Source: Escallonia rubra
Taxonomy: Eukaryota; Streptophyta; Magnoliopsida; Escalloniales; Escalloniaceae
Direction: 5' to 3'
Length of the DNA stretch: 64,000 nt
NCBI GenBank assembly: GCA_033065855.1
Contig: JAVXUO010001562.1
Coordinates: 620,001-684,000 of the forward strand
The notes below the pieces were generated by a model, which did not search any database, was not told the origin of the DNA, and worked only from the letters and a program-made list of their open reading frames with translations. The translations under genes were made by a program, and so were the position numbers. Positions within the stretch are counted from its first letter, which is position 1, and each line of letters starts with the position of its first letter. This document shows, piece after piece, positions 6,694-50,926 of this stretch.

Positions 6694-7724
6694 ACCAAAG
6701 TAACAAAATAAATCTGCCCCATTTTGCACTTCCGCAGTTCCATCCCTGTGCTTTACGACCTAAACCTTTATAGCTGACAAAAGTCACTTTATGCCAAACA
6801 CCAATTCAGAGCTTATTCTTTTGCAGCACTCCCTCTCGAAATCAGGAGGAAATGAAGTAAAAAGAGAGAGGAAAAGGAAAATTAGTTCTCGTGTATGGGG
6901 GCAACACAAGGCATCATACAGAATAGTAATATGCGAAACAAAATATAATGCGGAAAGTGGAGAGAATCTTACGAGTCTCTCTCAGCAGCTCAGCTCTCTG
7001 TGTCTTTTTTCCACCTTTCTCTTGCTTTTCCTTTCCTCTCCTTTCTTTTTCTCTCAGATGCTGTTTGGTCTTCTCCCTCTCATAAAGATATCTCTCAGGA
7101 TTGAAGAGCAATCCTGATGCTGCTGCTATGCCCTTTTCTGTAATAATATATAGTATACCCTCCCTTTCTCTCTCTCTCTCTCCCCCACAAGACTCTGTCT
7201 CTCTCTCATCATGAAAAGACTAAAAAAAGCTTCCCAAAAGACTACAGCTTTTATTTCCTTGTCTGCCATTTATTCCCCTTAAATATAACACATCACTTCC
7301 CTGCTTCCCCACTCCATTTCTCTCCTCTCTCTCACTCTGATTAGCCAGGAAATCAGGTCACACCACCAACAATCTCTTGGCAGTTTCATCTTCCTTTCCA
7401 ATCCTGTCTCTTCAATTTATTGCCTCTGCCTTCCTTAAAACTATGAATATGGGCTGATTTTAGCTTTATGCTCTGGTGGGTATTGCGATTTGCTTCCTAG
7501 TACTCACTAGTTACTGCATATACCAAGTCCATTTCCCTCTGGTGCATTTCATCAAACACTTTCGGAGGGGTTCTTGAACTGAAGACTTCCCAAGAAAGAA
7601 TAGGAAGAGAAGTGCAAGAACTCATTTTTCTTCCATTTGCAGTAAAACCCCATCTGGGTTTTGCAATTCGCTCCAACCTCAAAAACCCTCCAAAACCCCA
7701 TTTACAAGCAAAAGATTTTCAAAT
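6694..7724 (+). promoter_or_regulatory. Upstream and 5' leader region of the PIN gene
   Basis: About 1.03 kb between the LINE insertion and the PIN start codon. It is rich in CT/GA tracts, notably 7162-7206 (CTCTCTCTC runs), which are common in plant 5' leaders and serve as GAGA/BPC-type binding sites. A TA-rich patch at about 7141-7156 could be the core promoter, with the CT tracts just downstream. No transcription start can be fixed from sequence, and auxin-response elements were not searched systematically. Confidence 0.45.
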
Positions 7725-10700
7725 ATGATCACACTTACAGACCTTTACCACGTTCTCACAGCTGTAGTTCCTCTCTATGTGGCCATGATCTTGGCATACG
7801 GCTCAGTGAAATGGTGGAAGATCTTCAGCCCTGACCAGTGTTCAGGCATCAATAGATTTGTGGCCCTCTTTGCAGTTCCGCTGCTCTCCTTCCACTTCAT
7901 CTCCACCAACAACCCCTATGCCATGAACTTCAGGTTCATAGCCGCTGACACCCTCCAAAAAATCATAGTCCTGGTTGTACTAGCCATTTGGTCAAGAACC
8001 AGCTCAAGAGGCTGTCTAGAGTGGTCAATCACCCTATTCTCTCTCTCCACTTTACCAAACACTCTTGTCATGGGCATTCCTCTGCTAAAGGGTATGTATG
8101 GTGATGCCTCTGGTAGCCTAATGGTTCAAATAGTTGTACTGCAATGCATTATCTGGTACACCTTGATGCTGTTCTTGTTTGAGTATAGAGGTGCTAGGCT
8201 TTTGATTGCTGAACAGTTTCCAGACACTGCTGGGTCCATTATTTCATTTAGGGTTGATTCTGATATCTTGTCACTGGATGGTAAAGAGCCATTACAAACT
8301 GAGGCTGAGGTTGGGGAAGATGGGAAGCTCCATGTAACCGTTAGGAAATCGACTAGTTCGCGATCGGAGATTTTCTCTAGGCGGTCACACGGGCCTAATT
8401 CTGGGCTTTCATTGACCCCAAGGCCGTCAAATTTGACCAATGCAGAGATTTATTCGCTTCAATCATCCCGAAATCCGACGCCTAGGGGGTCTAGTTTTAA
8501 CCATACTGATTTTTATTCAATGGTGAATGGGAAGAATGCGAGCAATGTCAGTCCAAGGCAGTCCAATTTTGGGAACCTGGGGTTTGATGAGGAGAGCGGA
8601 GCTGGAGGATATGGGAACCATGGAAGGGCTAATGGGGCTTATGGACAGGGGAATGCAGGGTACCCTGCACCTACTAGTGCGGGTATTTTCTCGCCGGTGG
8701 CGGGACCAGGGGCGAAAAAGAAGGCAAATGGGGCAGAAGGTGGTAAAGATCTCCATATGTTTGTTTGGAGTTCGAGCGCTTCTCCGGTGTCCGAAGGAGG
8801 GATTCATGTTTTCAGGGGAGGGGAGTATGGGAATGACCTTCCTGGGGTAGCTCATCCAAAAGGTAGAAAGTTAAACTTGATACTGCCTGAGGCCCTGAGT
8901 TATGGGGTTTCGATTGTATTTTTTTGTTGACATATATTACATGGGTTGTTTTCTTGTTCATGATTGTGTTTGATAGGGTGCATATTCTTGGAATGTTCTG
9001 ATTATGATGTAACTATATCTGTCATGTTGAATCCGTTTTCGGACATTGTTCATGTGATTTAGAAATTACTTATGTCTCTTTCCTATTGATAATTCCACCT
9101 GGTATGGGTGAAGTGGGGTTTCTCTTAGGTCATTTTCTTATTACGCTCCCCCCCCCCTATCATGTTTTGGTCTTATTTTTCTTCTCTAGTTACATGCTCA
9201 CACTAATATCGTCTTCGTCTACTTCGGTGATGTAGTTTAAGATATGAGCTTCTTATCTGTTTGTGGGTGGTTTTGTTCAAATCTTTTTTCCTATTAAAAG
9301 TTTTCCCTAGTATGGCTGAAGGGGTTTTTTTTTTTTTTTTTTTATCAAAGTTCTCCTCCTAATTTGGCCCTATTGTTCTTACTAGCCTCAATGTGAGGGA
9401 TTCTGTAATATTTATTTCCTACATGTTAAATTGTCCCCCTGGTATGAGTCAAGTGAGTTTTTCGTTCTGTCAATTCCAATTAAATTATTCCCCCAAATCT
9501 GGGCTTCTTGTTCTGATGCACTCAATTTGAGCATGTCTGAAATATTGGTCTAATTTGTCTTCTCTGATGACATCAATAAAACCATTTTCAACGTCTTACC
9601 ATTGATGGCCGCTTTTTATCTTGTGTGATTCAGAATACGATGACTTCGGTCGGGACGAGTTTAGTTTTGGAAACAGACCGGGCCCAAATGGGGCAGACCG
9701 CGAAGGACCTGTGCTCTCCAAGCTTGGTTCGAGTTCAACGACTGAGCTGCACCCCAAGGCAGGTGTTTCTGAATCCAAGCCTCCGGCCATGCCACCTGCT
9801 AGTGTCATGACGAGGCTCATTCTGATCATGGTTTGGCGTAAACTCATCAGAAATCCAAACACGTACTCCAGCCTCATAGGCCTCACCTGGTCTTTGGTCT
9901 CTTACAAGTATGCAAAAAAAAAATATATCAATTGGTTGAAGCGATTTTTCCTATGCTTCAAGTTATGTATCTTCAAAATCTTTTTCTTTTCCTTTTGTGG
10001 CAGGTGGGGTATTGAAATGCCTGCTATAATAGCCAAGTCAATATCCATTCTCTCTGATGCAGGACTTGGAATGGCCATGTTTAGTCTTGGTATGTTAGTA
10101 CTTCAAGCAAAACTTAACACTATGCCTTGCTCCATATGTCTGCAGTGAGATGTTGTGAGTATAATGAAGAGAAACAGAAAGAAAGGATAATGCACTTTCC
10201 TTACTACTGAAACTGAAGAAACACCAAATGTAATATCTGATGTGAGTTGTGGGCAAAAGTTGATCCCTTCTGGAATTGCAGGTTTGTTCATGGCATTACA
10301 GCCTAAGATGATTGCTTGTGGGAACTCAGTTGCTGCCTTTTCCATGGCTATACGGTTCCTCACTGGTCCTGCTGTCATGGCTGCCGCCTCAATTGCCGTT
10401 GGGCTTCGGGGAGTTCTTTTGCATATCGCCATTGTTCAGGTAGAACAGACCAGAAAATTGAACGATCGCATGATTTTGGTCTTATTTTTTGGTCTTAAAT
10501 CTTCTGATATATTTTGGTCTTATTTTTTCAGGCTTCTCTGCCACAAGGAATTGTTCCTTTTGTCTTTGCTAAGGAGTATAATGTTCATGCTAACATTCTG
10601 AGCACAGGGTTAGAACTCCAAATTCTCTCTTCTAATTAGACTCTATCACATGCTGAATACACTTTGGTTTGAAATATTAAAATACATGTACTATGTGTTG

Positions 10701-17700: not shown

Positions 17701-19660
17701 CATAGCCCAGAATCTTCCTCTCTAGTCAATGTGGGATATACCCAGCTCACCCTTCGTTGCCCCAACCATCCTCTTGACGTGGGATATACTCGGGCTTGCC
17801 TTCGTTTCCCCCAACCATCGCCAACCCGACTGGACAACCCAGCCCGAGCTTTCGAGAGTCGGCTCTGATACCATCTGTAATGACCCGGTCCATAGCCCCA
17901 CTACAAGGCATTGCCTCTCTCAAAAGGGCTAGCCAAGTAGGTACTTATGAGTTCATAGGCAGGGTCTTATAAGGCCAATCGCAAACTCTCCCACAACCGA
18001 TGTGGGATATTACACTAGCACTTTTGCGCCAAACGAAGAGAAAATAAAGAAATGCAATATAGGAAAACGTGGTGCGAAAAAAGATTTGTCTTAAATCAAA
18101 TGCTATAACTATCAACAGCAAACTCACTTTGCTCGTAATTGTGTTGAGCCGAAGAGGGTACCTTCTAAATCTCTCTCTCAGTTATATGTTTCCTCACGTG
18201 TGATGGTTGTTGATTCCCTACCTGTGTTGTTTTTGGATACATGTGCAATAAAACATGTAGCACGTGACCGAGAAGGGTTCCTAAATTTCTCCCAGATTTC
18301 AGTGGGTGGCAAACATATCTTCATGGGAAACAACAGCTCATATGAGGTGCTAGTGTAGAATAGTGAGAGCAACTCAGCCACTCGAGCCAGTTCACTTTGA
18401 CATATGTGGACTTATGAGCATAAATGCATGTCATGGTGCCTCTTATTTCTTCACACTGATAGACAATTATACGCGATATGGTTATGTGTGTCGGATATCT
18501 CATTACTATGAAGCTTTAGATTGTTTCAAACGCTTTGTGACAGAGGTTGAGAATCAGAATGAGAAGAGTTAAAAAAACTTTTCGCACTGACCGAGATGCG
18601 AATATTTGTCCAATCACTTCAAGAAGTTTTGTGAGGAAAAAAGGAATACACAGGCAACTTACTATTCCTAATACTCCACAACAAAATGGTGTTGAGAAAA
18701 GAAGGAATATAGCATTATTGTATATGGTTAGGTCTATGAAGGCGCAAGCGAACCTCCCAATACTTTTTAGGGGGGATGGCCTTTTGACTCAAATTATCCA
18801 AATTTGGATAATTTGAGTCCATGGGCTCAGCAGGTTTTGTTCACAGTACTTCTCATAAGTATGGGAAACTAGGGCCTAGATCTGAAAAAAGTATATTTTT
18901 AAAGTATTCTGAAAACTCTAAAGGCTATGTGATGTATAGTGAACATCCAAATATTGGAAAGACTGAAATAAAGTCTCGTGATGTCAATTTCATAGAGAGT
19001 GATTTTCTTATCATTGGAGACGCGAGTAAGAATATTGACCTCTATAAGTTAGAGAATGTTGAAGCCACTTTACCATCTCCAAGCGAAGGTGGGGAATTAA
19101 TTTCTCATTCGGTTGTCGGTAATGATAGTATAAGTGACTCTTAACTTTGTGGGAGCATCCCAGACAATGGGAGGACACCACGAGGACCGTCAAGTCAACA
19201 AGATTCTCAACTGCATAGAGGTACACAGGCACATCGTTGTTTTGAGATTGACGGAGAATTCTTATGTGCACTTCAACTGATGAGGATGAGCCCACTTCTG
19301 TAGCAGAAGCTTTATCTTTATCTGTTAACAATGAGTGGATAGCTACAATGAAGGATGAGTTGAGTTTAATGGAAAAGAATTAGGTCTGGGAGTTAGTTGA
19401 CCTTCTGTTGGACGCAGAACAAGTTGGTTTTAAAAGTCAAGCGCAAGGCATATGGGTTAATTAAGCCACGTTTTATGGTGAAAGGCTACATCCAACAGTG
19501 GGGTGTGGACTATGAAGATACATACTTTTCGGTGTTGAGATTTGCTTCAATTTGCCTGATCCTAGTTATTACCGCCTATCATGATTTAGAAGTTTTTAGA
19601 AGATACAGCCAACAGTGGGGTGTGGACTATGAAAATACACCTTTGCAATGATGGAATGGA
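14719..19660 (+). mobile_element. Decayed Ty1/copia element (5' LTR, gag, pol fragments)
   Basis: A probable 5' LTR of about 410 bp (14719-15128, TGTTAG...TAACA) is followed by a stretch resembling an initiator-Met tRNA primer site (TATTAGAGC near 15133). After a long leader, 16819 onward encodes a copia gag start (MATKSFIADLVKGEKLNRDN). Then come integrase-like pieces at 18363-18816 (VHFDICGLMSINACHGASYF, NGVEKRRN) and reverse-transcriptase pieces to about 19650. The element is heavily broken with many lesions, lacks a recognisable 3' LTR, and is old. A TRIM is nested at 17516-18014. Confidence 0.75.
17516..18014 (-). mobile_element. TRIM (miniature LTR retrotransposon), nested in the copia element
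   Basis: Two LTRs of 139 and 138 bp (17516-17654 and 17877-18014) are about 94% alike by eye and bound a 222-bp core. On the minus strand each begins TGTAATATC and ends in ACA. Next to the LTR at 17877 the minus strand reads TGGTATCAGAGC, the primer site for initiator-Met tRNA; next to the other LTR lies a purine tract (AAGGTGGGGAGA). Flanks CTAGT and CTAGC form a near-perfect 5-bp target duplication. It has no coding capacity, as is normal for TRIMs, and looks structurally whole and moderately young. Confidence 0.88.
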
Positions 19661-20345: not shown

Positions 20346-22640
20346 GGGGGCCGATCCCCACCCACCGGTGGGAAAAACGTTGTTTCTCCACCGGACCGCT
20401 GCAAAGAGCAGTGGTTGAAGAAAAGAAGAAAAAACCCAACCGCAACAAAGTGTTGCGGTTGGAATTATAGCCGAGAAAAGCCCAACCGCAACAAAGAGTT
20501 GCGGTTGGCATCATGAAGCACAAAAGCCCAACCGCAACTCTTTGTTGTGGTTGGCAATTGTTGCGAAAAATGGTCAAAAATCACGGCTCAACTTGTCTTT
20601 CCCCCCCCCCCCCACGTGGCCCCCACCCCTCATCCCCCCCCCCCCCCGTGGCCCTCACCCCTCCTCCGGTCAAAAATCACGGCTCAACTTGTCATTTCCT
20701 CCCCACCTCGTGGCCTCCACCCCTCCTCCCCCCCCCCCCCCCCGTGGCCCCCACCCCTCCTTTCCCCCATCCTTTGCTCGGCTGCCCTTTCCTTTCCCGA
20801 AAAATTAGAAAGAAAGAGAAAAAGGCCCCCGCCCCTCCCCCCTGGCCCCCACCCCATTGTCCTTCCCCCCCCCCCCCCCCGTGATGCCCCCCTTCCCCCC
20901 ACGTGGTGTCTTTCCCTCCCCCCACCCCCACGTGTCATTTCCCCCCTCCCCCCACCCTACTGCTCACTCACGGACTGAGATTTTGTCTGTCTTCTTTCTT
21001 CTCTCTCCCTCACTTTTCTCTCTTTAAAATCCCTTCTCCCCGAACCAGTTCTTCCACTCTCCTCATTCTCCATATCTCACCTACATAATCTCCACAACAA
21101 TACAAACAAAAAAAAATTATGCTAGAAGATCGGTGGATTTTTCTTTAAATATATCAAGTTAAAACAAGTAAGTATTTTGAATTTTCTTATAATTCAATGT
21201 TAATTTCAAATTGTTCTTACCAATTGATTGTTTAAATTGTGTTACGCTTAAATTATTCTTACCATAGTCTAAAATTCGTGTTTAGGGCGTCAAAATTACG
21301 TTTTTACAAATCGGGGTATTACATTCGAAAGATTCCAAAATAGCGATTTTTTAGGGCGTCAAAATTAGGATTTTTCACGAATTTATAAAAAATAGCTAGA
21401 GCTAGATTTTGCCAAAGTGCAAAAAACAGACCCTAATTATTTTTAAAAGATCTGTATCAGGTAAAAATTTCAGATTTTTCCAAAGACTGGAAAGGGGTAA
21501 ATTGACACGCGCAACCTTGTAACTTTTGCAGTGTAATTTAAAATATCAAGCTAGCGCGATTTCGAGCGAAACTTTTATGAGAACCCTAGGATGTTGGGAA
21601 GTTCCATTTCCCAGGAATTCGGGCCATTTCAAAGCCGTTAGCTATTTTTTTGGCCGAACAGGCTTTTAAGCGCTCGATCCGGACACCGATTCGGGATTTT
21701 TGGGCGAAAAATCCGTAGAATACTTTTTAGATCAAGAATGAATTCAGGAAGCTTAAAATAGCATTTTAAAGCACTTTTGAGATTTTCTGAAGCCATGGGG
21801 CATTTTGGTAATTCGTCGCCCCGAGAGGGGTATTTTGGTAATTTTCCCGGTAAAGTTTTTCAACGGACTATTTAGTCCAGAAATGTAAGCAAAGCACCTG
21901 AAAGGTTGTTTTGAAGCTGATTGCGGGAAATAATTGTCGCTAAAGGTGAAAACTTAATTAGACAGTTTTTCACGAATTTATAAAACATAGCTAGAGTTAG
22001 ATTTTACCAAAGTACAAAAAAAAGACCCTAGTTATTTTTAAAAGATCTATATCAGGTAAAAATTTCAGATTTTTCCAAAGACTAGAAAGGGGTAAACTGA
22101 TACGCGTAACCTTGTAACTTTGTAATGTAATTTAAAATATCAAGCTAGCGCGATTTCGCGCGAAATTTTTTTGAGAACCCTAGGATGTTCGGAAGTTCCA
22201 TTTCCCAGTAATTCGGGCCATTCCGAAGCCGTTAGCTATTTTTTTGGCCGAACGGGCTTTTAAGCGCTCGATCCGGACACCGGTTCGGAATTTTTGGACG
22301 AAAAATCCGTAGGATACTTTTTAGATCAAGAATGAATTCAGGAAGATTAAAATAGCATTTTAAAGCACTTTTGAGATTTTCTGAAGCCAGGGGGCATTTT
22401 GGTAATTCGCCGCCCCGGGAGGGATATTTTGGTAATTTTCCCGGTAAAGTTTTTCAACGGACTATTTAGTCCAGAAATGTAAGCAAAGCACCTGAAAGGT
22501 TGTTTTGAAGCTGATTTGGGGGTTATTTGGGGGCGTTGGGGTGATAATGAACCCCCGGGGGCATTTCGGTAATTTGCTGCTCATCGGGGGCTATTTTCGT
22601 AATTGAACATTCCGACACAACTGGAGGAAATAATTTTAAC
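20346..22640 (+). repeat. Left TIR of the large MULE
   Basis: Outer to inner: GC-rich tip, three palindromes (20436-20554), C-rich block with long C runs (20600-20960), AT-rich segment from 21100, then two copies of a 595-bp repeat starting at 21371 and 21966. Inverted similarity to the right arm fades after GGAGGAAATAATTTT near 22640. A third, partial repeat start is seen at 22731. The arm and the following ~650 bp probably hold the promoter and leader of the PMD gene. Confidence 0.88.
20436..20554. repeat. Three palindromes near the left MULE end
   Basis: Three near-perfect 27-bp hairpins at 20436-20462, 20482-20508 and 20528-20554, each with arms CCAACCGCAAC and GTTGCGGTTGG around a 5-bp loop (AAAGT, AAAGA, or its complement). 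The same trio occurs inverted at the right end. Position and repetition suggest transposase or host-factor binding sites. Confidence 0.85.
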
Positions 22641-23298
22641 ACCATGTGTGTTCCTAGGGTGTAACACTATGTGTGTTTAACGTGTGTACGAAACGTAATT
22701 ATCGCTAAAGGTGAAAACTTAATTAGACAGTTTTTCACGAATTTATAAAACATAGCTAGAATGAACCCCCGGGGGCATTTCGGTAATTTTCCGCTCATCG
22801 GGGGCTATTTTCGTAATTTTACATTACACAAATTTTTCGAATGACTTTTAGTTCAGGAAAGGGTGTGAGACACCAGAAAAGTTATTTTAAAGTTGTTCTG
22901 AGATGTTTGTTGGGGCGATGACTGCCAGGGGGTATTTTGCATAAGTTGGGGTGTTTTGGTAACTTTCACCCTTAAAATATTATGAGGAAATATTTGGTAT
23001 ATAATTGATGTAATACATTTAAAAAGTGGTTTTAAAGCGGTTTTGAGGTGTTGGGGGTGTAGCGGCCATCGGGGAGGTATATTGCTAAATAACCACGTTG
23101 GCGCTAAATTTTAGGGAACTAGCGTTATTAAGCGTTCGGAGTGGTGGGAAGTGAGGAATTGTTTTAATACATTGAAATAATGATTTAATGACTATTGCTA
23201 ATGCGTTGGTAAGCTAGGTTAAAGATCCAGTTACAGTTTTGGAATGTAAATATTATGGACGCTAAGTTGGTTTACGATTATATTTTGTTCTGAGAGAT

Positions 23299-25318
23299 AT
23301 GGATTTCAACCCTGGACCTCATGATACATCAATCCTATACGATGACAATGACCACGTCGCGAGGCACGTATTTGACAGTGTCGATAGGGGTGTTTTGGAA
23401 ACAATTCAAAGCACAAGTCACCTCGACGAGTGGGTACTGAACGAGGAACAAATACAACTATTACACCGTCAAAATTTGACCATGTACACCGATTGCGGGA
23501 TTTGGTCTCGGCACGACGATTGCCTTATATCCGCTCTAGTTGAACAATGGAGGGGCGAGACGAACTCATTTCACTTCCGGTTTGGTGAAATGACTATTAC
23601 ATTAGAGGACGTCGGATTTATACTTGGAATCCCATGTCACGGCAGACCTATTACTTCGACCCGTACGTCTGTATCCATAGCGAAGATGGCTAGGCAGTAT
23701 TTTCCGGGAATTCCAAGGGAAGCTCTTACAACCAACGGCATAAAACTTAAATGGCTGAGAGAGCAGTACGACAAGCTACCGGATGAATACACTCCTCATG
23801 ATTTGGTGACGTATACGAAGGCATTCCTTTTGTATATTACTGGAGCTATATTACTTCCGACGCATTCGAAAAACACGGTGCATCCGAAGTATATGGTGTT
23901 CTTGGAGGATCTTGAGGAGGTATACTCGTATTCGTGGGGTTCAGCTGTCCTTGCGCACCTATATCGAGCACTGCACAGAGTTACGAGAAAGGCTGCCAAG
24001 TCCATTGCCGCCTGCATCACTCTGTTACAGGTTTGAGCATTTATATTCTTGGTTGACGTGTCAATATATTCGTGATTAATTACTAATTCCATATAATGTT
24101 TGCATTCACAGGTTTGGTCTTACGAGAGGCTACCCACGGGTCATCCACAGCCCGTAGATGATTCCGATGAGACGTGGCCTGGGGTGTGGGCCTGGGGGCC
24201 TACACCCAGTCGGAAGAGACGGGTAGACCCTCACCACCATCTAAAGTTCTATCGGGGGGAACTAGATATGATGAATGCATCCCAGGTGACGTGGCAGCCA
24301 TATGGGAAGGTGATGCATTGGTTGGATGAGTGGTGTTGGCAACTTCCGGTGTCGTACGTGTTGGCAGGTTTGGTTCGGGTGCCTCTTATTAACTTCGAAG
24401 TATGTGAGTTTCAGATGCCCGATCGAGCTATGAAACAAGCTGGCTGTCTACAAGGGATACCAAAACCCGCTATAGACATGCGGCCATACAGGAGCGGTCG
24501 AGGTCCGAACTTTGAGGTGCCTGATGCCTTGAATTTGCTGAGCGACGAGGTGCAACAGTGGAATACTTGGAAAGAAACGTATGGTAGCCTTGTATCGCTC
24601 AAGGACGACGGCACCAGTACTGAGGAGTACCTGCAATGGTTTCTCAAGGTGACGCGCACGAGGGTGAATCGCCCTTCCCAGGTGAGGAAGACATCGTATG
24701 CGCCACGTGAGGTCTATGACCAGTTCTGGGCATTGAGCATTGTAAGTCACCCTAGTGTTGTTTCAATATTTATTTGCGCACCTTATCGACCATGCCTGAA
24801 ATGATGACGGTGATTTTTCTATGCATGTTTTTTAGGTTGACCAGGGCACTGAGGTGTTCAAGCAGCTGGAGCGGTTTGACTGGTATGTCGCGCATGCTCC
24901 TGACAGTCTCAAGAGGTCCATTGAGAGCTACAAGACTGATCTTCACAACTTTAGTGTTGCGTACCAGGGTTACCAAGGGGAGCCGTCTAGTCGCTTGCCT
25001 CCTGACGCGTACGACTCTCAGCCCCAGAGTCAGGTGTGGGAGCCGTCTATTCGCTTGCCTCCTGACGCGTACGACTATGTGCCCCAGAGTGTGGTGTGGG
25101 AGCTGTCTAGTCACTTGCCTCCTGACACGTCTTTGCCCCAGATGGAATTCTGGGAGCCGTCTAGTCACTTGCCTTCTGACGCGTCTTTGCGCCAGAGGGA
25201 ATTCTGGGAGTCGTCTAGTCGCTTGCCTCCTGACACGTATGACTCTCAGCGCCAGAGTCAGGTGACCCAAGTAGGAATTCAGGCCTCGCGCCCAAGCATC
25301 CGGTCGGATAAAGGATGA
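23299..25318 (+). CDS. Plant mobile domain (PMD) protein, N-terminal part of a PMD-Ulp1 unit
   Basis: Exons 23299-24030, 24112-24741 and 24836-25318 join in phase 0 to give 614 aa before TGA. Residues ~60-400 match the plant mobile domain (PF10536, the MAIN/MAIL1 family): CGIWSRHDDCLISALVEQWR, FHFRFGEMTITLEDVGFILG and PHDLVTYTKAFLLY are typical. MAIN/MAIL1 are nuclear proteins needed for transposon silencing; PMD is also frequent inside plant transposons. The C-terminal part (24985-25260) is a linker of about five ~19-residue repeats based on SSRLPPDAYDSQPQSQVWEP. Only GCG separates the TGA from the in-frame ATG of the C48 protease, so this is probably one fused gene with a premature stop, or two tandem ORFs. 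Expression would start in the left TIR. Confidence 0.85.
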
Positions 25319-25321
25319 GCG

Positions 25322-26221
25322 ATGAAGCCATTGAGGCCGGACAAGCGGGATTGGATCGACCGGCACTACTTCGGGCCTGAGCCCGTCGATACCTCAGACT
25401 TTCCTCTTAAAACATTTCTAGGTCATGCGGATATGAGAATGTTGGCACCGGAGACAGATATTTCAAATTTTTTCATGAACGCTTATATAGATCTGCTCTG
25501 GATTAGAGAGCTACGTTATAACCATTGCGAAGATTTGAAGCTTAAAATGTATCCCACTTATTTTGTCACATTAATGGTGACCAGCATGAGGGAGTTCACA
25601 GAATGGAGGAGGCGAGAGGCAGGCAGGGGTAAGTGGAAACCAGCTGGAAACGTGTTAGGCATGTTGAACTCAGACTATCAATGTCACGCTGCTCATGCGA
25701 ACCTTATCATGATACCTTGTCATCATGAAAACTACTGGTTCCTATTAGTTCTCCGTCCAGCGAACATGGCGGTCAACATATACGATAGCCTAAGGGAGGA
25801 CGGACCTGGGCGGTCGCTGGCACAGATGTACAGCGAGTACATCACTGCAGTGGTTAGTTTTTATCTGTTGACCTTGGCTCATAGTATATTCTTCTTGTTA
25901 CATAGGCTTGATGTTATTTTTTATTGTTGGATGCAGACTAATATCCTCTCGCTAGCATTCCAAGATTACTCGGGAGAGACCATCACCAGGAATTCGACGG
26001 TAGAGCCCTGGACGGTCGTGATGATACAGGACAGACCAAAGCAATATAACAGTCACGATTGCGGGATTTACGTCCTCAAGTACATGGACTACATTGCTCG
26101 CTCCGAGGTGCTCAAATATACGTCGTGGACTAGGAATGATGCCTTGACGTTTAGGTATAGGATAGCCTGGGAGCTGAAAAAGAATGAAGCTAGATGCCTT
26201 CATTACCATTATCCTAACTAG
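25322..26221 (+). CDS. Ulp1-like (C48) cysteine protease domain of the MULE
   Basis: In frame with the PMD exons and 4 nt beyond their stop. Exons 25322-25852 and 25937-26221, with a GT-AG intron of 84 bp, give 271 aa. Ulp1/SENP-type proteases process or remove SUMO. The catalytic set is present: His134/135 with Trp139 (HHENYW), Asp155 (NIYDSL), Gln213 and Cys219 (QYNSHDCGIY). The first ~100 residues are family-typical linker. C48 domains are repeatedly carried by plant MULEs and fused to PMD. Protease identity is firm. Whether it is made alone, by reinitiation at this ATG, or as part of a fusion is open. Confidence 0.85.
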   Translation: MKPLRPDKRDWIDRHYFGPEPVDTSDFPLKTFLGHADMRMLAPETDISNFFMNAYIDLLWIRELRYNHCEDLKLKMYPTYFVTLMVTSMREFTEWRRREAGRGKWKPAGNVLGMLNSDYQCHAAHANLIMIPCHHENYWFLLVLRPANMAVNIYDSLREDGPGRSLAQMYSEYITAVVSFYLLTLAHSIFFLLHRLDVIFYCWMQTNILSLAFQDYSGETITRNSTVEPWTVVMIQDRPKQYNSHDCGIYVLKYMDYIARSEVLKYTSWTRNDALTFRYRIAWELKKNEARCLHYHYPN

Positions 26222-26239
26222 CATGGCTAAGGAGCAATG

Positions 26240-27625
26240 AGCAAAGAATCCCTTAAAAAAAATGTACATAAGTTTTCGCAAGCTATGAATTTGGCGATAA
26301 AATGTGCGCGAATAGGTCTTTCATAAGAAAACCCAAAAAAATTAAGTGGCTCGATTTTCGCCAAAATTCATACAAATGGGCTAACTAGCGTGCCTAAGGT
26401 GCAATGAGCCAAAAAGAAGTGACAAAAAACATTACAACATTTTTCGGAAGTTATGAACTGGGCTATAAAGTGTGCGCGAATAGGCGCGTCGTAGGAAAAC
26501 CCAAAAAATAATTTAAGTCTCAATTTTTGTCGAAATTCATAAAAATGGGCTAAGTAGCGTGCCTAAGGGGCAATGAGCAAAAAATAAATGACAAAAAAAA
26601 TTACAACATTTTTCGGAAGCTATGAATTGGGCGATAAAGTGTGCGCGAATAGGCCTTTCATAGGAAAACCAAAAAAATTATGTCTCGATTTTCGCCGAAA
26701 TTCATACGAATGGCCTATTAGTGTGCCTAAGGGGCAATGAGCAAAACAGAAGTGACAAAAAAAATTACAACATTTTTTTGAAGTTATGAATTGGGCGATA
26801 AAGTGTGCGCGAATAGGCCTTTCATAGGAAAATCAAAAAAATTATTTGTCTCGATTTTTGCCGTAATTCATAGGAATGGCCTATTAGCGTGCCTAAGGGA
26901 CAATGAGCAAAAAACAAATGACAAAAAAAAATTACAACATTTTTCGGAAGCTATGAATTGGGCGATAAAGTGTGCGCGAATAGACCTTATATAAGAAAAC
27001 CAAAAAAATTATTTGTCTCGATTTTCGCCGAAATTCATAGGAATGGCCTATTAGCGTGCCTAAGGGGCAATGAGCAAAAAAGAAGTGACAAAACAAATTA
27101 CAACATTTTTTGGAAGCTATGAATTGGGCGATAAAGTGTGCGTGAATGCCTTTCATAGGAAAACCAAAAAAATATTTGTCTCGGTTTTCGCCGAATTTCA
27201 TAGAAATGGGCTAACTAGCGTGCCTAAGGTGCAATGAGCTAAAAAAAGTACAACTTTTTTCGCAAGCTAACAATTGGGCGCTAAAGTGTGCGCGAATAGG
27301 CGTGTCGTAGGAAAACCCAAAAAATAATTTGTCTCGATGGTCCCCGAAATTCATAGAAATGGGCTAACTAGCGTGCCTAAGGTGCAATGAGCAAAAAAAA
27401 AGTACAACTTTTTTCGCAAGCTAACAATTGGGCGGTAAAGTGTGCGCGAATAGGCGAGTCGTAGGAAAACCCAAAAAATAATTTGTCTCGTTTTTTGCCG
27501 AAATTCATAGAAATGTGCTAACTAGCGTGCCTCAGGTACAATGAGCAAAAAAAAAGTGACAAAACAAATTACAACATTTTTCGCAAGCTAAGCATTGGGA
27601 GATGTGTGCTCGAATAGGCCCTTCC
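26240..27625. repeat. ~165-bp tandem array between the convergent MULE genes
   Basis: About nine imperfect copies of a 150-169-bp unit, marked by GTGTGCGCGAATAGG at 26301, 26466, 26635, 26797, 26968, ~27134, 27285, 27438 and 27602, with AGCGTGCCTAAGG and CAATGAGCAAAA blocks in each. It starts right after the protease stop codon and stops about 110 bp before the transposase stop, so it fills the 3'-3' intergenic gap. Small open frames inside are not genes. Confidence 0.93.
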
Positions 27626-27732
27626 AAAAATATCAATGATCCACAAACCAAATCACAAATTAAAGATTTCACAAACCAAATGACAAATATAAACATTATA
27701 AAAGTTAAATTTATACAACTGAAACATTAACC

Positions 27733-30039
27733 CTAACACTCTTCCTCATCATCGTCCTCCTCGACCATACTGCCAGGTTCGATACCTAGCACTTTATAAT
27801 GATTTCTCTTGTCATGATCAGTCATCTTATTACACAACGCACACTTTCGCAATTTTTTTTGACCCGTTGCTTCTTCAATCGGATTCTTCATACGTATTGC
27901 ACGTTTTCGCCCTTTTGTTTGAGAAATAATTGGATCAAAAATATTGTCCTCCTCACCTGGCAGGCTAGTGCTGTCAATGACTGGCTGTGAAGCTCGATTG
28001 AATCTACCGGCTGGAGTCGCCCGAGTTGCCGGAGTGTCCCGTCCTTCTGGTAATGCCATCCTAAACTGTGCAAGGTTAGCCTTATCCCGTGCTGCTGCTT
28101 CAACTTGATACATGTACCCATCAAATGTTGACGCTGCATCCAATGATAAACCGTGCATGATGTTACAAAGGTGATTATATCGCAGGGGCTCAGATTGCTC
28201 GAAATCAACTGAAACGTTGGGCACGTAAGGAATGTGACCGTGGACTCTATTGGCTTCCTTCGTCCACCGATCCAAGATATACTCTGGAGGGATTTCACGA
28301 GGATTCTTGGCGCTAAAAAACCTCAACGCGTGTCGACAGAGTATACCTTTATGCTCAAACAGTTGACAGTTGCAATTAACACCCCCGGTCTCCATACACA
28401 CTGCTACGGTAAAATTTCTTCTGTTCTTCGGAGCCGGCGAAGAGCATGGATTGGAAAAATTCGTCACATTTGTCAAAGCATAAACCTTGAGATATATGTT
28501 GCATAGCTCGCGCAACTTTGTCATGCTATATTGATTCGACTTTAGTAGCTCATCCTGAAACTGTCTAAACATTTCCTTGGTATAGACTTGAGCCGCATGA
28601 GCCTCCAAAGGTGAAAAAACTAATATTTGTCTTTCTCTGTAAACTGTAGCCGCGTCGGCTTCTCTGTCAAGGTAAAATTTCCTGTCAAGGGCTTTCTGCA
28701 TCTCTAGTACGAACTCTGTTATACTTGAAGAAGAGCGTACGTACCCATCAAAGGATGAATTCATACCTTTGTTTCTCGAGGTCGTAGTCATTCCGGCTGC
28801 AAAAAACTTTTTGGTGTAGGCACCGATCCACTGTGTCCTGATCTCATACAACACTTGCAACCATTCATGACTGTGCAAATATTAGTCATCCATTAACTTG
28901 GCCCACCTCTCCTCGAACACGTCTACCGTCAACGATTTCTTCACACATGTATTAAAGTCACTCTTAAATGTCGGATGGTTTGCATATACATTGTGAAGCC
29001 GTTCGGGATATTTGTTGCTTATGTGCCATGTGCACAGGCCATGGTGAGTATCTGGAAGGACCTTAGCGATTGCATTTTTCATTGCCAGATCTTGGTCGGT
29101 GATGATGGTCTTTGGAGGAATATGATACATTGCTTCAAGCCACGTTTCAAATAACCACGTAAATGACTCCTCCGTCTCATCCCTAAGCAGGGCAAAGCCA
29201 AACAAGATTGACTGATAGTGGTGGTTCACCCCGGTGAACGGCGCAAAAGGCATAGAGTACTTATTTGTGCGGTATGTGGTGTCAAACGTCACAACATCGC
29301 CAAAATTTTGGTAAGCAGCTCTAGAACGGGCATCCGACCAAAATATATTAGTAATGCGGTTCTCGTCATCCAGTTGGAGACTATAGAAAAAGCCAGAATT
29401 CTCACTCTGAAGGCGCCTGAAGATATCAAGTGTAGCTTGAGAATCACTCCTACAGGAAGACTCTCTCCTCTGAGCACGAAGTTCATTTCGGAGGTCTACT
29501 TCGTTGAAGCTCAACTTGTCAACCCCCCCCCCCCCAGCCCGGCTTGAGAAAACCCCCATCATTCCAGAAGGTGGAATTTTAGCCTCGGCCATTGTAAATA
29601 TCAGTTGTCTGTGTGCCGCGCTTATTTCTCGGTGCTGATGAATTTGACCAATCTTACTAGGGGTCATCAACTGATGGTTATGGCTCAACTCCACTCCCAT
29701 CAGAACCCAATGATTTTCATTTTTCCGGTGTACTGCATACACATGGGCCTTGCAGCCGGTACCCAGAAACGTGTCCCGTTTTCTTTGTCTTGATGGCCCT
29801 TCGTCACTGATCCGAACAACCGGGGGTACATGCGGTGCTCCTCTATGACACTCAAATAGTCTTCCACAAATTTGATATGTATTCGCCCGTTTTCTAGTCG
29901 TCTTAATTCTAATACCGAAACCTGTCGTTTTCGAATATGCTCTATAGTATGCTTCAACTTCCTCCAGTATTTGAAAAACTTGACCCAAGTAAGGTGGATC
30001 AGAATCTTCACAAAAATTATTTCCTCCAGTTGCATCCAT
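27733..30039 (-). CDS. FAR1-type MULE transposase with one in-frame stop
   Basis: One continuous minus-strand frame of 769 codons, interrupted only by TAA at 28884-28882 (codon 386). Domain order: FAR1/WRKY-GCM1-type zinc-finger DNA-binding region (~30-125, GCKAHVYAV...LSHNHQL), MULE transposase (~240-430) with FDTTY (D253), TDQDLAMKNAI (D315) and HGLCTWHI, SWIM zinc finger (~556-570, CNCQLFEHKGILCRHAL), basic segment and C-terminal CALC...H knuckle plus acidic tail. It would bind the TIRs, cut and integrate. At the third catalytic position, where relatives show an E in an RSESMN-like block, this copy has SRNKGMN (K424, codon AAA). Host FAR1/FHY3 factors descend from such proteins, but the TIR context makes this a transposase. 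Confidence 0.9.
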
Positions 30040-30104
30040 ATTTATACTGAAATCTAAAAAAAAAATTATATCATTCTCAACAAGTCATAGAATTAAATAA
30101 AAGA

Positions 30105-32929
30105 AAAATAAAAATTATTTCCTCCAGTTTCAAAAAATTTTGACAATGTTCAATTACGAAAATACCCCCGATGGGTGGCAAATTACCGAAATGCCCCCTG
30201 GGGTTCATTATCACCCTAACGCCCCCAAATCAGTTTCAAAATAACCTTTCAGGTGTTTTGCTTACATTTCTGCACTAAAAAGGACTTTGAAAAACTTAAC
30301 ACCGTAAAATTACCAAAATATCCCTCTCGGGGTGGCAAATTACCAAAATGCCCTCCTGGCATCAGAAAATCTCAACAGTGCTTTGAAATGCTATTTTAGG
30401 CTTCCTGAATTCATTCTTGATCTAAAAAGTATTCTACGGACTTTTCGCCCAAAAATCCCATACCGGTATCCGGATCGAGCCCTTAAAAGCCCGTTCGGCC
30501 AAAAAAATAGCTAACGAATTCGGAATGGAACTTCCCAACATCCTAGGGTTCTCATAAAAGTTTCGCGCGAAATCGCGCTAGCTTGATATTTTAAATTACA
30601 CTGCAAAGTTACAAGGTTGCGCGTATCAGTTAACCCCTTTCCAGTCTTTGGAAAAATCTGAAATTTGTACCTGATACAAATCTTTTAGAAATAACTAGGG
30701 TCTCTTTTTTGTACTTTAGCAAAATCTAGCTCTAGCTATATTTTATAAATTCGTGAAAAACTGTCTAATTAAGTTTTCACCTTTAGCGATAGTTACGCCC
30801 CGCAATCAGCTTCAAATCAGCCTTTCAGGTGTTTTGCTTACATTTCTGGACTAAAAAGCCATTTGAAAAACTTAACAGGGTAAAATTACCAAAATACCCC
30901 TCTCGGGGTGGCAAATTACCAAAATGCCCCCTGGCATCAGAAAATCTCAAAAGTGCTTTGAAATGCTATTTTAGGCTTCCTGAATTCATTCCTGATCTAA
31001 AAAGTATTTTACGGACTTTTTACCCAAAAATCCCGAACCAGTGTTCGGATCGAGCGCTTAAAAGCTCGTTCGGCCAAAAAAATAGCTAACGGCTTCGAAA
31101 TGGCCCGAATTCCTGGGAAATGGAACTTCCCAACATCCTAGGGTTCTCAAAAAAGTTTCGCGTGAAATCGCGCTAGCTTGATATTTTAAATTACACTGCA
31201 AATTTACAAGGTTGCGCATATCAGTTTACCCCTTTCCAGTCATTGAAAAAATCTGAAATTTTTACCTGATACAGATCTTTTACAAATAACTAGGGTCTTT
31301 TTTTTGTACTTTGGCAAAATCTAGCTCTAGCTATGTTTTATAAATTCGTGAAAAACTGTCTAATTAAGTTTTCACCTTTAGCGACAATTATTCCCCGCAA
31401 TCAGCTTCAAAACAACCTTTCAGGTGCTTTGCTTACATTTCTGGACTAAATAGTCCGCTGAAATACTTTACCGGGAAAATTACCAAAATACCCCTATCGG
31501 GGCGGCGAATTACCAAAATGCCCCCTGGCTTCAGAAAATTTCAAAAGTGCTTTAAAATGCTATTTTAAGCTTCCTGAATTCATTCTTGATCTAAAAAGTA
31601 TTCTACGGATTTTTCGCCCAAAAATCCCGAACCGGTGTCCGGATCGAGCCATTAAAAGCCCGTTCGGCCAAAAAAATAGCTAACGGCTTCGGAATGGCCC
31701 GAATTCCTGGGAAATGGAACTTCCCAACATCCTAGGATTCTCATAAAAGTTTTACGCGAAATCGCGTTAGCTTGATATTTTAAATTACACTGCAAAGTTA
31801 CAAGGTTACGCGTATCAGTTTACCCATTTTCAGTCTTTGGAAAAATCTGAAAATTTTATCTGATACAGATCTTTTAAAAATAATTATGGTCTGTTTCTTG
31901 CACTTTGGCAAAATCTAGCTCTAGCAATCTTAATTTTGACACCCTAAAAAATCGCTATTTTGGAATCTTTGGAATGTAATACCCCGATTTGTAAAAACGT
32001 AATTTTGACGCCCTAAACACGAATTTTAGACTATGGTAAGAACAATTTAAGCATAACACAATTTAAACAATCATTTGGTAAGAACAATTTGAAATTAACA
32101 TTGAATTATAAGAAAATTCAAAATACTTACTTGTTTTAACTTGATATATTTAAAGAATAATCCACCGATCTTCTAGCGGTTATCCACCGATCTTCTAACG
32201 TAAAAAAATTTTGTTTGTATTGTTGTGGAGATTATGTAGGTGAGATAATGAGAATGAGGAGAGTGGAAGAAATGGTTCGGGGAGAAGGGATTTTAAAGAG
32301 AGAAAAGTGAGGGAGAGAGAAGAAAGAAGACGGACAAAATCTCAATCTGTGAGTGAGCAGTAGGGTGGGGGGAGGGGGGAAATGACACGTGGGGGTGGGG
32401 GGAAAGGACACGTGGGGGTGGGGGGAGGGAAAGGCACCACGTAGGGGGAAGGGGGGCATCACGGGGGGAAAGGATGGGGAAAAGGACAATGGGGTGGGGG
32501 CCACGGGGGGAGGGGGAGGGGTGGGGGCCCTTTTCCCTTTCTTTCTAATTTTTCGGGTAAGGAAAGGGCAGCCGAACAAAGGACGGGGGAAAGGAGGGGT
32601 GGGGGCCACCGGGGGGGGGGAGGAGGGGTGGGGGCCACGGGTGGTGGGGGCCAAGGTGGGGGCCACGGGGGGGGGGGAAAGGACAAGTTGAGCCGTGATT
32701 TTTGACCATTTTTCTCAACAATTGCCAACCGCAACAAAGAGTTGCGGTTGGGCTTTTGTGCTTTATGATGCCAACCGCGACTCTTTGTTGCGGTTGGGCT
32801 TTTCTCGGCTATAATTCCAACCGCAACACTTTGTTGCGGTTGGGTTTTTTCCTCTTTTCTTCAACCGTTGCTCTTTGCAGCGGTTCGGTGGAGAAACAAC
32901 GTTTTTCCCACCGGTGGGTGGGGATCGGC

Positions 32930-32932
<3 letters not shown>
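30105..32932 (-). repeat. Right TIR of the large MULE
   Basis: Inverted counterpart of 20346-22640. It has the same palindrome trio (32725-32843), a G-rich block (32360-32690), the AT-rich segment, then three copies of the 595-bp repeat; TCGTGAAAAACTGTC lies at 30751 and 31346, exactly 595 bp apart. The extra copy explains the longer arm. ACTGGAGGAAATAATTTTT occurs both just inside the arm (about 30110) and at the start of the transposase gene (about 30015), a ~100-bp local duplication. Confidence 0.88.
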
Positions 32933-32999: not shown

Positions 33000-35303
33000 A
33001 AAGCAATTCATCCAAGATTCTCATAACCGGAGTATGACATCAAGAAAGCTCATTAACAACTATCACAGTTTATCATAACTTAGGTATGTTATGGTCAGCG
33101 TACAATCCCCCCTGACTAGGGCCCACAATCCCTATTCCACCTGGGATAAATATTATTCGGTCAGAGTACAAGCCCCCCCTAACTAAGACCCACAATCCCT
33201 CCTCCGTTCCGAGATACATATTATTGTGGACACAAGGGCGAACCACGTGCAACACTACTGTGCGTCAATGTATCGTCCCGTCGACCAGGACCCACAATCC
33301 AACTTTTTCCCGTGGATATGGGCTCAGCAACCAAGCCAGAAACATCGTCTCACTCAACATAAGCAAACTTGAAGACACAACTCATAGAAACATTCCACGG
33401 CATTTTTAATTCAAATTCTCATCAAATGGTTATCAACAAAACTTATGCAATAAAAGTACTTCAAAAATTTTCATTTGATTAAATCGTGTATACATTTGCA
33501 TTTTTGCAAATTGAGTATACGGATGAATATGGCAGAAGTACTTACCTGGATAGCTAAGCGATTCTGGTTCTCAAGCTTTCCTAACTCTTGGCTATCAGAA
33601 CCTAAATAACAAACCACCCAAATGTTATTTATTGTCATTCAAGCATGCCTAGGTGTTAAATTCTCCCAAGTGAGTGAAATTACCAAAACACCCCTAGACT
33701 TGAAAAAATTACTAAATTACCCCTAACACCTAACGTACCGTTACACACCCAGTATAACTCAAAACATCCTTTTCAAACAACTAGGTGGGTTTTTCGAACA
33801 AAAATGGCCTTCTGAGAATTTTTCGTACGGAACCCTAAACCGCTCCTTAAATTGAGCGCTAAGGTTTCTATTTCAAAATATATTCAAATGGCACTGAAAT
33901 GCCACAAAATTTCAGATGCTCAAGTATCTCAGAGTATTTATACCACTATAAAGTTTCCGACTAAAAATAATTTTGTTTAATATATCAAATAATTCAAAAG
34001 CCTAATTTCAAATTAAAATCATGTCAGGCCTTTTCCATGCTCAGAAAAATCCCATAAAATTCCATGTCGAAGGTCTTTGAAAAATAATGAGAGTTTTAGT
34101 TTGGACTTTGCCCAAATATGCTCAGAAATGGCTTAAAACGTCTTGGGCAATGGATTGATATGTAATTCTAGGAACAACATTTTTTAGCAAACCCTAGTTT
34201 TTTAGATTGACCATTTTGAGGAAGAAACATGATGAATCTTAAAAAAACTCAAAACTACAAAGTTAAAGTAGGCTTATTGAGGTTTTCATAAATCCAACGA
34301 GTAATGACCTTTCTTAGCAAATCGAAGTGGCTGATAGACACAGTACATCTCTGTGCAGATCAATTTTGTTCAATCGTTCTTTTGGAGCCAAAATACTATA
34401 AATTTTAAAAAACTCAAAACTACAAAGTTGTATAAAAATATTTGAGGTTTCTAGAAATATAAATTTCATAAAAATCCTATGAATAATTAAGGTTCTATGA
34501 GAAATAGAATTGGCTGCCAGAAACTGAAAATTCTGGACTTCTACAGTGAATTGAATTTGAGGTCGTTTTTCAATGTGCAAACGTGGGATTCCAAGAAAAC
34601 TCAAAACTAAAAAGTTAAAGGCGACACAATTAGGCTTTCAGAAAGGGTAAAATCATCTTAATTGGATTTTAAATATACGAGATATGATAAAAATCTAACC
34701 CACTATTATGCTGCTCTATAGCAGCCTTCGTATCAAACACACCCACAAAAGCTACCAATTTCATACCAAAAACATATATAACATCCAAATTCAGGGCTAA
34801 ACTAAATATAGAGTTTAGAAATTTTGTTACCTTGAATTTCCCCTTGCCCTGGCCTTGTTTCTTCTCTCTTTCTTCCTCTCTGTACTTCACATAAAGGGAG
34901 TGGGCAGACTTCTTGGACGACTGTCCTCTCAAGGCTCTCTTTTTATATAGTTGCCCTTAGTTGGAAATTTCTAAAGACTCCCCTCATCTTTAGCTGTTTT
35001 CTTGTCTCACCCACATTCTTTTAAAAGATTACAAATTCTTGACTTAAAGTAAATAACAATAAAAAATTTCAACACATAAAAGTTTCATCGACGAAAATAA
35101 AATTTTGGGCATTACATTCTCCCCACCTTATTAATCTGCAACTTAGGAGCATTATAAATTGTCACTAAAGGTCACAATCAATACCACTGGCAATAATCGG
35201 CGCTAAATACTCCAATTAATATATATTACAACTGCCACTAAAGGAATAACTAAAATTCTAAGATTAACCGTAAACCGTATTCTAGGTGTGGGGTATTACA
35301 TGT
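33000..35303 (-). mobile_element. LTR-retrotransposon-derived segment, probably an LTR plus adjoining sequence
   Basis: On the minus strand a purine tract (AAGGTGGGGAGAA) sits directly before TGTAATGCCC at about 35114, the usual polypurine tract-LTR junction, and a TATA box (TATATAAAAAGAGAG) follows near 34950. TGTAATACCCC at 35303 looks like an outer LTR-type end and abuts Helitron coding sequence. At 33085-33320 a ~90-bp tandem repeat with CCCACAATCC is seen. No gag or pol is visible. It is a broken, probably Ty3-like fossil; exact bounds are uncertain. Confidence 0.4.
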
Positions 35304-43740: not shown

Positions 43741-43777
43741 AGTTAAAAATTTTGATAATGTCTTCATTATCGAGTGG

Positions 43778-45266
43778 CACTACAAGAAAAGGGATTTTTA
43801 GTGACAGACAATTCCGTTGCTAAAAGTCCATTTCCCGTCGAAAAAGACTTTTAGCGACAGACACCCCGTCGCCAAAAGTTCATTGCCATTAACCCTGTCA
43901 CTAAAATAGCGCCAAAAAAATTGACTTTTAGCGACGGGACGATAAAATCAATATCGACGAAATTTTCATTGCTAAATTAATTTTTGTATTTTAGTTTAAT
44001 TTCTTTTTTTTAATTAATAATTTCAAAAAAATATTTAGCGGCCTCGTAAGAATAGATTGGAGGGTCTCGGTAGCAGTTCGGTCAGCCATCAGCGTCCACT
44101 GGTACAAGTATGAGTACTAAGGGATTGAAGCGGTGGCTGGATACACTGTGAGTCATCGAAGAAGGAAAGGGCGTGTACGCGGCCTGCCCAGCGTGACTAC
44201 ACGTGCCATGATGGGAGGGCCCCACCCTTTACTGCCCTTCCACAGGCACAAACACCGACCGCGAAGCGACAGTTACACTTGGAGGATGTTCGTCGCATTG
44301 CTCGAGAGGTGGTCAAGATGATGAGAGCCCAGAATGAGGTACAAAACAGTTACTTTATGAAGCCAATATACATGAATAAACACAATATACAAATACTAAT
44401 GAGAATGATTGCGTGCTTTTAGTGTAGGACATTATAGCTGGGCAGTCCGAGCCGGATCCGGATGACACCCCCGTGGACGATGACGAACATGGTTCAAATC
44501 CCGGTCTTGACGAGCCCTGAGCTCTCCTCCTCTTTCCCTCTCCTGCCCTCCTAGAATTTTGCTCCCCTCCCCTATTTTTTACCCCCACCTACTCTTATCC
44601 CCGCCCCCCGTTTTGTTTGTATACAGCTAATGGACAATGTTATATATTTTTTGTTCAATATTTTGTTCCATCAGCAATTATTTAACTCTAATGTGGATTG
44701 GAATTGCTTGTTGATGGATGTGGATTAGTTGGGATTGTATAATTGGATTGTGATTTGAATTACAGGTTTGGGTATAATAAAATTAAATTATTTTTAGCGA
44801 CGGATTTTTTTCTCGTCACTAAAAGTCTACAATGACAGTGTTGTGAAAATCTTTTAGTGACGAAAATTATTTTGCCAACAAACCTTTAGCGACAGAATGC
44901 CCATCGCTAAAGTTCCATTATTTTTAACGAAAGAATTTTCGTCGCTAAAATTTCGTCGGTAAAACATTTAACGACAGAATTTTCCATAGCTAAATATTTT
45001 TTTAATTAATAATTTCTAAAAAAATTAATTTAAGATACGAAAATTATGCTTAGCGACGGAATTTCTATTGCTTAAGGAATTTAGTTTCCGTCGCTAAAAG
45101 TTAGACTTTTGGCGATGAGTTTTTAAAATTTGTCGCCAAACTTTTAGCGACAGGGTTATAAGCGACAAACTTTTAGCAACGGAGTGTCGCTAAAAGTCTT
45201 TGGCGATAGAATAAGGACTTTTAGCAACAGAATTATCCGTCGCTAAAAGTCATTTTCCTTGTAGTG
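43778..45266 (+). mobile_element. CACTA element, deletion-derivative type, with both termini
   Basis: Starts CACTACAAGAAAAGGGA and ends TTTTCCTTGTAGTG, with AGCGACGG-type subterminal repeats in the first ~250 and last ~490 bp. The interior (44050-44520) has short frames such as HLEDVRRIAREVVKMMRAQN, plausible last exons of the CACTA accessory gene. The 3-bp flanks (TGG and TCT) do not match, so the ends may come from two overlapping insertions or a rearranged larger element. Confidence 0.65.
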
Positions 45267-45289
45267 TCTCTCACTCAATCTCCCCTCTC

Positions 45290-50460: not shown

Positions 50461-50926
50461 ATAACTCGATTACGCAACCAATCAAAGTTTTCATTTTAAT
50501 TATTTACTGTTCATTTGGAGTTTTCCATTTATAAAAGTCCTCAGACAAAAAGCCGAAAAGAACACCACATTAATTGTAGTTTGCTATCGAGCGCAAATAG
50601 CATGGGTATGTTTATGAGACACGGAGTTTTTTTTTTCACCTTTTTATTTATTTTTAGATATTTCTTCATTAGTATTTAAACTGGAGACAATTTTTATCTT
50701 TAGCCTTTAGCGACATACAGATTACAGAGTAGAATACTGTCGCATAATTGCAAAATGAAAACGTAAATAGAACTTTAAAAACGAGTATCCGACAAAAATT
50801 GGCCTAACTTTTCGTGGTCCGAAAGGACGCGATAAAGCTTGGGGAATGATCGGACAAGAACTCACAGCAAACCCTAGACTGAACGCGAAGAACCTTAGAG
50901 ACCAGAGCTTTCCAAAAGTATCCAGC
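50461..50926 (+). promoter_or_regulatory. Upstream region of the bHLH gene
   Basis: The 466 bp between the CACTA end and the chosen bHLH start must hold the promoter and leader. An upstream in-frame ATG at 50846 would add 27 residues. I prefer 50927 because bHLH106/107-type proteins begin MQPE-like. No certain TATA box. Confidence 0.4.

Follow-up and report, generated by a model that had tools for sequence, protein, structure and literature searches.

A probable inactivated FAR1-type Mutator-like transposon of Escallonia with giant inverted arms, a PMD–C48 gene and a candidate PMD target array

Which DNA sequence does each PMD protein read, and what does a transposon gain by carrying one? MAIN and MAIL1 are required for silencing, many transposons carry a PMD, and excerpts of two papers call the role of the domain unknown or undetermined (PMC8616336, PMC5418596). 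The question is raised anew by a 12,587-bp element in a 64-kb stretch of Escallonia rubra DNA (the whole stretch analysed, called the window here). In this element a PMD gene and a transposase gene face each other between long inverted arms. It is probably one copy, inactivated, of an autonomous FAR1 (Jittery-like) Mutator-like element (MULE). In predicted models its PMD takes the fold of the DNA-binding region of the anti-silencing protein VANC21, a match of fold and not of function. A 17-bp motif that recurs in doublets offers a candidate for the sequence that this PMD reads. The principal features are as follows, with strand in brackets (a point where none applies).

20346..32932 (.): whole element, with (TA)n on either side
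20346..22637 (+): left arm (terminal inverted repeat, TIR), containing two ~595-bp tandem units
30111..32932 (-): right arm (TIR), containing three ~595-bp tandem units
23299-26221 (+): gene A, with four predicted exons (GT-AG sites) and three predicted introns
27733..30039 (-): gene B, FAR1-MULE-SWIM transposase, with an in-frame stop at 28882-28884
26213..27624 (.): tandem array of a 167-bp unit (8.7 copies) where the 3' ends of genes A and B face each other

The first-pass annotation of this DNA had ascribed a PMD and a C48 protease to gene A, and both domains were recovered. The PMD (PF10536) is full-length after removal of intron 1 (4.9e-69, profile positions 15-346 of 347). Peptidase_C48 scores 4.7e-19 in the spliced gene, and its score rises from 60 to 69.5 bits once intron 3 is spliced out. 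The linker holds five in-frame repeat units (24980-25264) with spacings of 60, 60, 54 and 54 nt. The predicted exons are:

23299..24030 (+): exon 1, first half of the PMD; its start codon matches the start of the Escallonia protein P0002
24112..24741 (+): exon 2, second half of the PMD
24836..25852 (+): exon 3, linker repeats and the first part of C48, separated by the TGA at 25316-25318
25937..26221 (+): exon 4, remainder of C48, with Gln and Cys retained

The predicted PMD fold matches the structure of VANC21 bound to DNA (PDB 9lnj), and for two predicted models no other PDB entry matched at E ≤ 0.001. The sequence identity between the two is 9%. Gene A does not qualify as a VANC gene by the DUF1985 profile, which reaches 23.5 bits in the spliced sequence and 26.5 bits in exon 1 alone, below the Pfam cut-off of 35.1. 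The kinship of PMD and VANC may already be in print in the publication behind 9lnj.

The candidate targets are arranged as follows:

21797..22818 (+): four doublets of GGGRBATTTYSGTAATT, starting at 21797/21827, 22391/22421, 22558/22588 and 22772/22802; candidate PMD targets, binding putative
30152..31524 (-): the mirror-image set of four doublets, at 30152/30181, 30308/30338, 30884/30914 and 31478/31508

The eight doublets have a pitch of 29-30 bp, lie four per side and are all oriented toward the genes. They stand upstream of both genes, the last left doublet (22772/22802) just to the inside of the left arm, and coding sequence and central array hold none. The motif was derived from sites in the arms and then counted: at one mismatch or fewer there are 17 copies in the window, 16 of them within the element (13 exact), where 0.04 would be expected for the whole window. 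The remaining copy, with one mismatch, lies at 33678-33694 (-), about 750 bp beyond the right end of the element. To offset bias from a visual choice, a ranking at two mismatches or fewer was made of 5886 non-simple noncoding 14-mers from the element. The 17-bp motif came first, with 18 copies in the element and 2 in the 50.9 kb outside; the terminal palindromes reached 12 and the central array 9-10.

Five of the doublets lie in the 595-bp units and three outside them. In 18 pairs of doublets from different contexts the doublets themselves are 77-96% alike, and their 150-bp flanks score 0.42-0.62, against a shuffled baseline of 0.48 taken from one pair. One pair, that of the two inner arm ends, departs from this range at 0.76. 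On the left, some 75 bp are common to the two innermost sites, slightly more than the doublet. Among the 595-bp units the flanks are mostly alike, so those doublet copies are repeats and not independent events. The earlier idea of a VANC-like anti-silencing factor thus gains a predicted fold match to VANC21 on DNA and a candidate target array.

The element itself bears out the first-pass annotation. Inverted arms of 2.3 and 2.8 kb were recovered by two methods, a repeat search and blastn; gene A (+) and gene B (-) point inward and are convergent, and the long arms together with a MULE-domain transposase support a TIR-MULE. The repeat search gives 90-97% complementarity for most arm blocks and 74% for one block of 133 nt, and blastn aligned arm to arm at 87.5% over 2289 columns including gaps (E = 0). 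The outer ends are identical base for base except for one extra G at the left end, as expected of matching MULE termini. The ~595-bp unit, seen in blastn self-matches and in the motif spacing, has two copies in the left arm and three in the right, and this explains the difference in arm length. Both outer ends adjoin (TA)n. The nine identical bases outside each end, TATATATAT, lie within this simple repeat and hence cannot prove a target site duplication of the 8-11 bp expected for MULEs. The 167-bp array showed no clear similarity to the arms; the stretch that contains it (26222-27732) has a CpG observed/expected ratio of 1.25. Near each end there are palindromes of the form CCAACCGCAAC-N5-GTTGCGGTTGG:

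20436..20554 (.): three subterminal palindromes CCAACCGCAAC-N5-GTTG(C/T)GGTTGG, one with a C to T change; candidate transposase sites, with a putative binding role
32725-32843: mirrored palindromes at the right end, two fitting the same pattern and a third with one change

Gene B was confirmed as a FAR1-MULE-SWIM transposase, with all three domains matched: FAR1 (PF03101, 2e-14) at the N end, MULE (PF10551, 2.3e-33) and SWIM (PF04434, 9.3e-6) at the C end, the order of the Jittery or FAR1-type group. Among the matches listed, two unnamed proteins come nearest to it (46% and 48% identity); further unnamed proteins rank next, together with FAR1-RELATED SEQUENCE 5-like proteins from carrot and celery. 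When 36 of the 120 matches listed were put into a tree with the window protein, gene B grouped with these carrot and celery proteins and with unnamed proteins at 100/100, so the host would probably be an asterid. Two listed FAR1-type proteins, P0135 of Mucuna (1344 aa) and P0136 of Fragaria (1323 aa), are longer than most listed relatives and are possibly fused gene models.

For the PMD, 120 of 260 protein matches were listed. PF02902 occurs in none of the 120, and no PMD-C48 fusion was found among them; of 440 candidates of fusion length that shared words with the C48 part, none matched it. A tree was built from 33 of the listed matches and the window sequence, with P0001 trimmed to the PMD; in it the window PMD falls with the Escallonia proteins P0001 and P0002 and four unnamed proteins on a seven-row side supported at 100/100. 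The other 27 rows stand apart, and 12 of them are named MAIN-LIKE 2 or MAIN-LIKE 2-like, so that the window PMD falls outside the host MAIN-LIKE (PMD-C) clade. The branches flanking the drawn root measure 0.45 and 3.55, and the program warns of long branches. Finer placement is unsure because of these branches and because the tree was built without PMD-A and PMD-B references. Similarity to the four unnamed relatives ends around the position of intron 2.

The residues that precede the PMD in P0001 match the C-terminal tails of FAR1-type transposases in 18 of 121 sequences (phmmer, best E 1.4e-6 in a small set), and in blastp most rows shown have 24-29% identity over roughly 100-190 residues. 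These 18 phmmer matches do not include the protein of gene B. These similarities suggest that P0001 represents the same partnership of PMD and FAR1 transposase, there on one strand. Exact searches with the terminal sequence gave no match in viral contigs (31 bases) or in bacterial and archaeal contigs (20 bases), and the PMD exon had no confirmed relative in viral contigs; these collections hold no plants, so the zeros say nothing about plant copies.

From the fold and the motif we infer, and lean modestly towards, an anti-silencing function for gene A. The gene B transposase would act on the element ends, plausibly through the subterminal palindromes. Gene A would encode an accessory protein whose PMD reads the 17-bp doublets upstream of both genes in both arms. 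Like the VANC proteins of VANDALs, this protein would lift silencing from the arms of its own element, and both genes would thereby keep their putative inward-facing promoters active. Its C-terminal Ulp1-like domain might remove or bind SUMO on chromatin proteins at the doublet sites, if it has a SUMO role.

This copy appears to be defective. In gene A the single in-frame stop, TGA, comes before the C48 domain, and the same frame continues into C48. With one in-frame stop in each gene, this copy can probably make neither full protein. We take His, Asp and Cys, with Gln, to be the catalytic residues of an active C48 or Ulp1 SUMO protease. An alignment with SENP2 (1tgz) shows Asp, Gln and Cys conserved and Tyr in place of the catalytic His; the set is incomplete, and the protease of this copy may be catalytically dead. 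Thus the SUMO-type protease of the first-pass annotation stands as a domain and is doubtful as a function in this copy, given the upstream stop and the Tyr. The novelty of the architecture is also narrowed by precedents in print for its parts, which are given below.

As a substitute for a selection test, the stops observed were compared with those expected under drift of coding DNA over the divergence time of the arms. The arms differ by 5.0% over 1404 bp of blocks that were chosen ungapped, which makes indels unusable in this comparison. The drift expectation is 4.6 stops, and two were observed; the probability of two or fewer is 0.16, or 0.60 at half the drift time, and neutral decay is not rejected.

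The stop in gene A bears on whether the PMD and C48 are one product. They could be two, with TGA the true end of the PMD gene, as in P0002, and C48 a second gene or a remnant. P0002 stops not far past the point to which it matches and has no C48, an ATG follows one codon after the TGA, and the 120 listed PMD relatives, all without PF02902, fit the same picture. Against this, the frame continues without a spacer and the C48 match begins about 50 codons on. Third-position GC stays high across the stop, which is weak evidence, and plant genes seldom share one message. We consider two products somewhat unlikely.

The DNA-binding fold of the PMD would fit a transposition helper equally well. The protein could be MURB-like or bind the ends, and the doublets could act as sites of the transposase, of the helper or of a promoter, unconnected with anti-silencing; that they stand in the TIR arms or next to them, and upstream of both genes, agrees with this. 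However, the outermost repeated palindromes are separate and better candidates for transposase sites, the innermost doublets are near the genes rather than at the ends, and the predicted fold match is to an anti-silencing factor. A helper role is unlikely on this evidence.

Gene A could also be captured host sequence without function for the element, by transduplication of the Pack-MULE type. MULEs often take up gene pieces; excerpts of the literature call ULP capture frequent (PMC2528002) and describe capture of PMD-C by MULEs (PMC5418596). The stops in both coding regions, and a decay compatible with neutrality, agree with this. But the PMD is complete, starts like P0002 and resembles its relatives up to near intron 2. 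It sits on a long branch away from the MAIN-LIKE rows, its Escallonia kin seem to be joined to a FAR1 tail, and the linker spacings (54 and 60) preserve the frame. Capture is, in our view, quite unlikely. An assembly artefact or a nested accidental inverted repeat is hardly credible: simple repeats assemble badly and both ends lie in them, but the arms differ by 5% in the compared blocks, share their outer ends and enclose MULE-typical genes in convergent order, and are therefore not a mirrored assembly copy.

Elsewhere in the window a gene for a membrane transport protein (PF03547) is present in two pieces (7578-8930 and 9606-10148, +); it is apparently a host gene and presumably PIN-like. 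Retroelement remnants comprise a zf-RVT domain (5732-6391, -) and, upstream of the element, a retroviral polymerase SH3-like piece (18812-19144, +). Repeats with TTTTAGCGACGG-like units, short, diverged and both inverted and direct, occur at 43772-45272 and 49383-49610 and possibly belong to another small transposon. A gene with a partial bHLH domain (PF00010) lies at 50771-51319 (+).

How does the anti-silencing reading of this element compare with known systems? No publication was found that describes PMD with MULE and Ulp1, or PF10536 with PF02902. The single publication with both PMD and Ulp1 terms has Ulp1 in a reference title, and its MULE is mudrA-type. In PMC4178011, which had seemed relevant, the PMD occurrences shown include a vector name, and PMC6419827, PMC11152179, PMC9569675 and PMC5299730 contributed nothing decisive. 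The first-pass annotation had thought the architecture undescribed. In the searches made this held for the exact union, and not for its parts, since PMD antisense in MULEs (PMC6446971), PMD capture (PMC5418596) and Ulp1 in TIR and Jittery-like MULEs (PMC2528002) are in print.

Table 1 of PMC6446971 places a PMD in MULE groups 42 and 45-50, as a further motif or gene and in several groups antisense to the transposase, as here. The same survey gives 'PMD and/or DUF' for half of the VANDAL members. The terms Ulp, C48, protease and peptidase do not occur in its main text. Its Jittery or FAR1 row for dicots and monocots (group 36) has FAR1 and no PMD, one open reading frame, and TIRs of 39-292 bp or none, whereas our element has two genes and arms of 2.3 and 2.8 kb; TIRs in the survey as a whole measure 14-500 bp. 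Long ends with duplicated TIR sequence within them are likewise known from MULEs with multiple tandem TIRs (PMC3310237). In those the duplication affects the TIR itself; in our element the outer end is single and only the inner ~595-bp unit is repeated.

ULP sequence occurs in TIR, non-TIR and Jittery-like MULEs (PMC2528002). In Jittery-like MULEs of melon and grapevine it lies downstream of the transposase, as here; section 10 of that paper, in the excerpt, mentions neither a PMD nor long tandem arms for them, and both are present in our element. Kaonashi elements (KI-MULE) and KIU genes likewise have an accessory gene with a VANC-type region and Ulp1, the Ulp1 gene running reverse to the transposase as in our element (PMC13317346, PMC2528002). 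KI-MULEs, however, are non-TIR with mudrA (PMC2528002), in contrast to the long TIRs, FAR1-type transposase and full PMD found here, and unlike KIU genes this copy is interrupted by an in-frame stop and has Tyr where the catalytic His would stand. Ulp1-carrying VANC genes (PMC13317346) and genic PMDs fused to protease domains (PMC7156037) have been reported, and anti-silencing or counter-silencing use of PMD proteins has been proposed for MULEs that capture a PMD (PMC5418596) and for PMD proteins made by transposable elements (PMC8616336).

A further close parallel is VANC21 of VANDAL21 (Hiun), with which gene A shares the predicted PMD fold, tandem peptide repeats as in VANC proteins, and short motifs repeated in the noncoding DNA of the element (PMC5735166). 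The doublet layout resembles the binding of short motifs in noncoding tandem repeats by VANC21 (PMC5735166, PMC10398659). The two differ in the motif and the type of transposase as well as in most of their sequence, and the activity of gene A is predicted only. The comparison suggests that sequence-specific anti-silencing is not restricted to the VANDALs of Arabidopsis and its relatives. More tentatively, and at somewhat less than even expectation, PMD and the VANC DNA-binding region could be one fold family, in which all PMD MULEs of flowering plants would have VANC-type readers of their own noncoding repeats, and MAIN and MAIL1 would be former readers or counter-readers. If so, this element would add an Ulp1-like domain to the reader and display the target code as doublets in giant FAR1-type MULE arms. 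Since PMD and Ulp1 are each precedented in MULEs, what is added here is the union of PMD, C48 and FAR1, the giant arms with their motif array, and the match of the PMD to the VANC fold.
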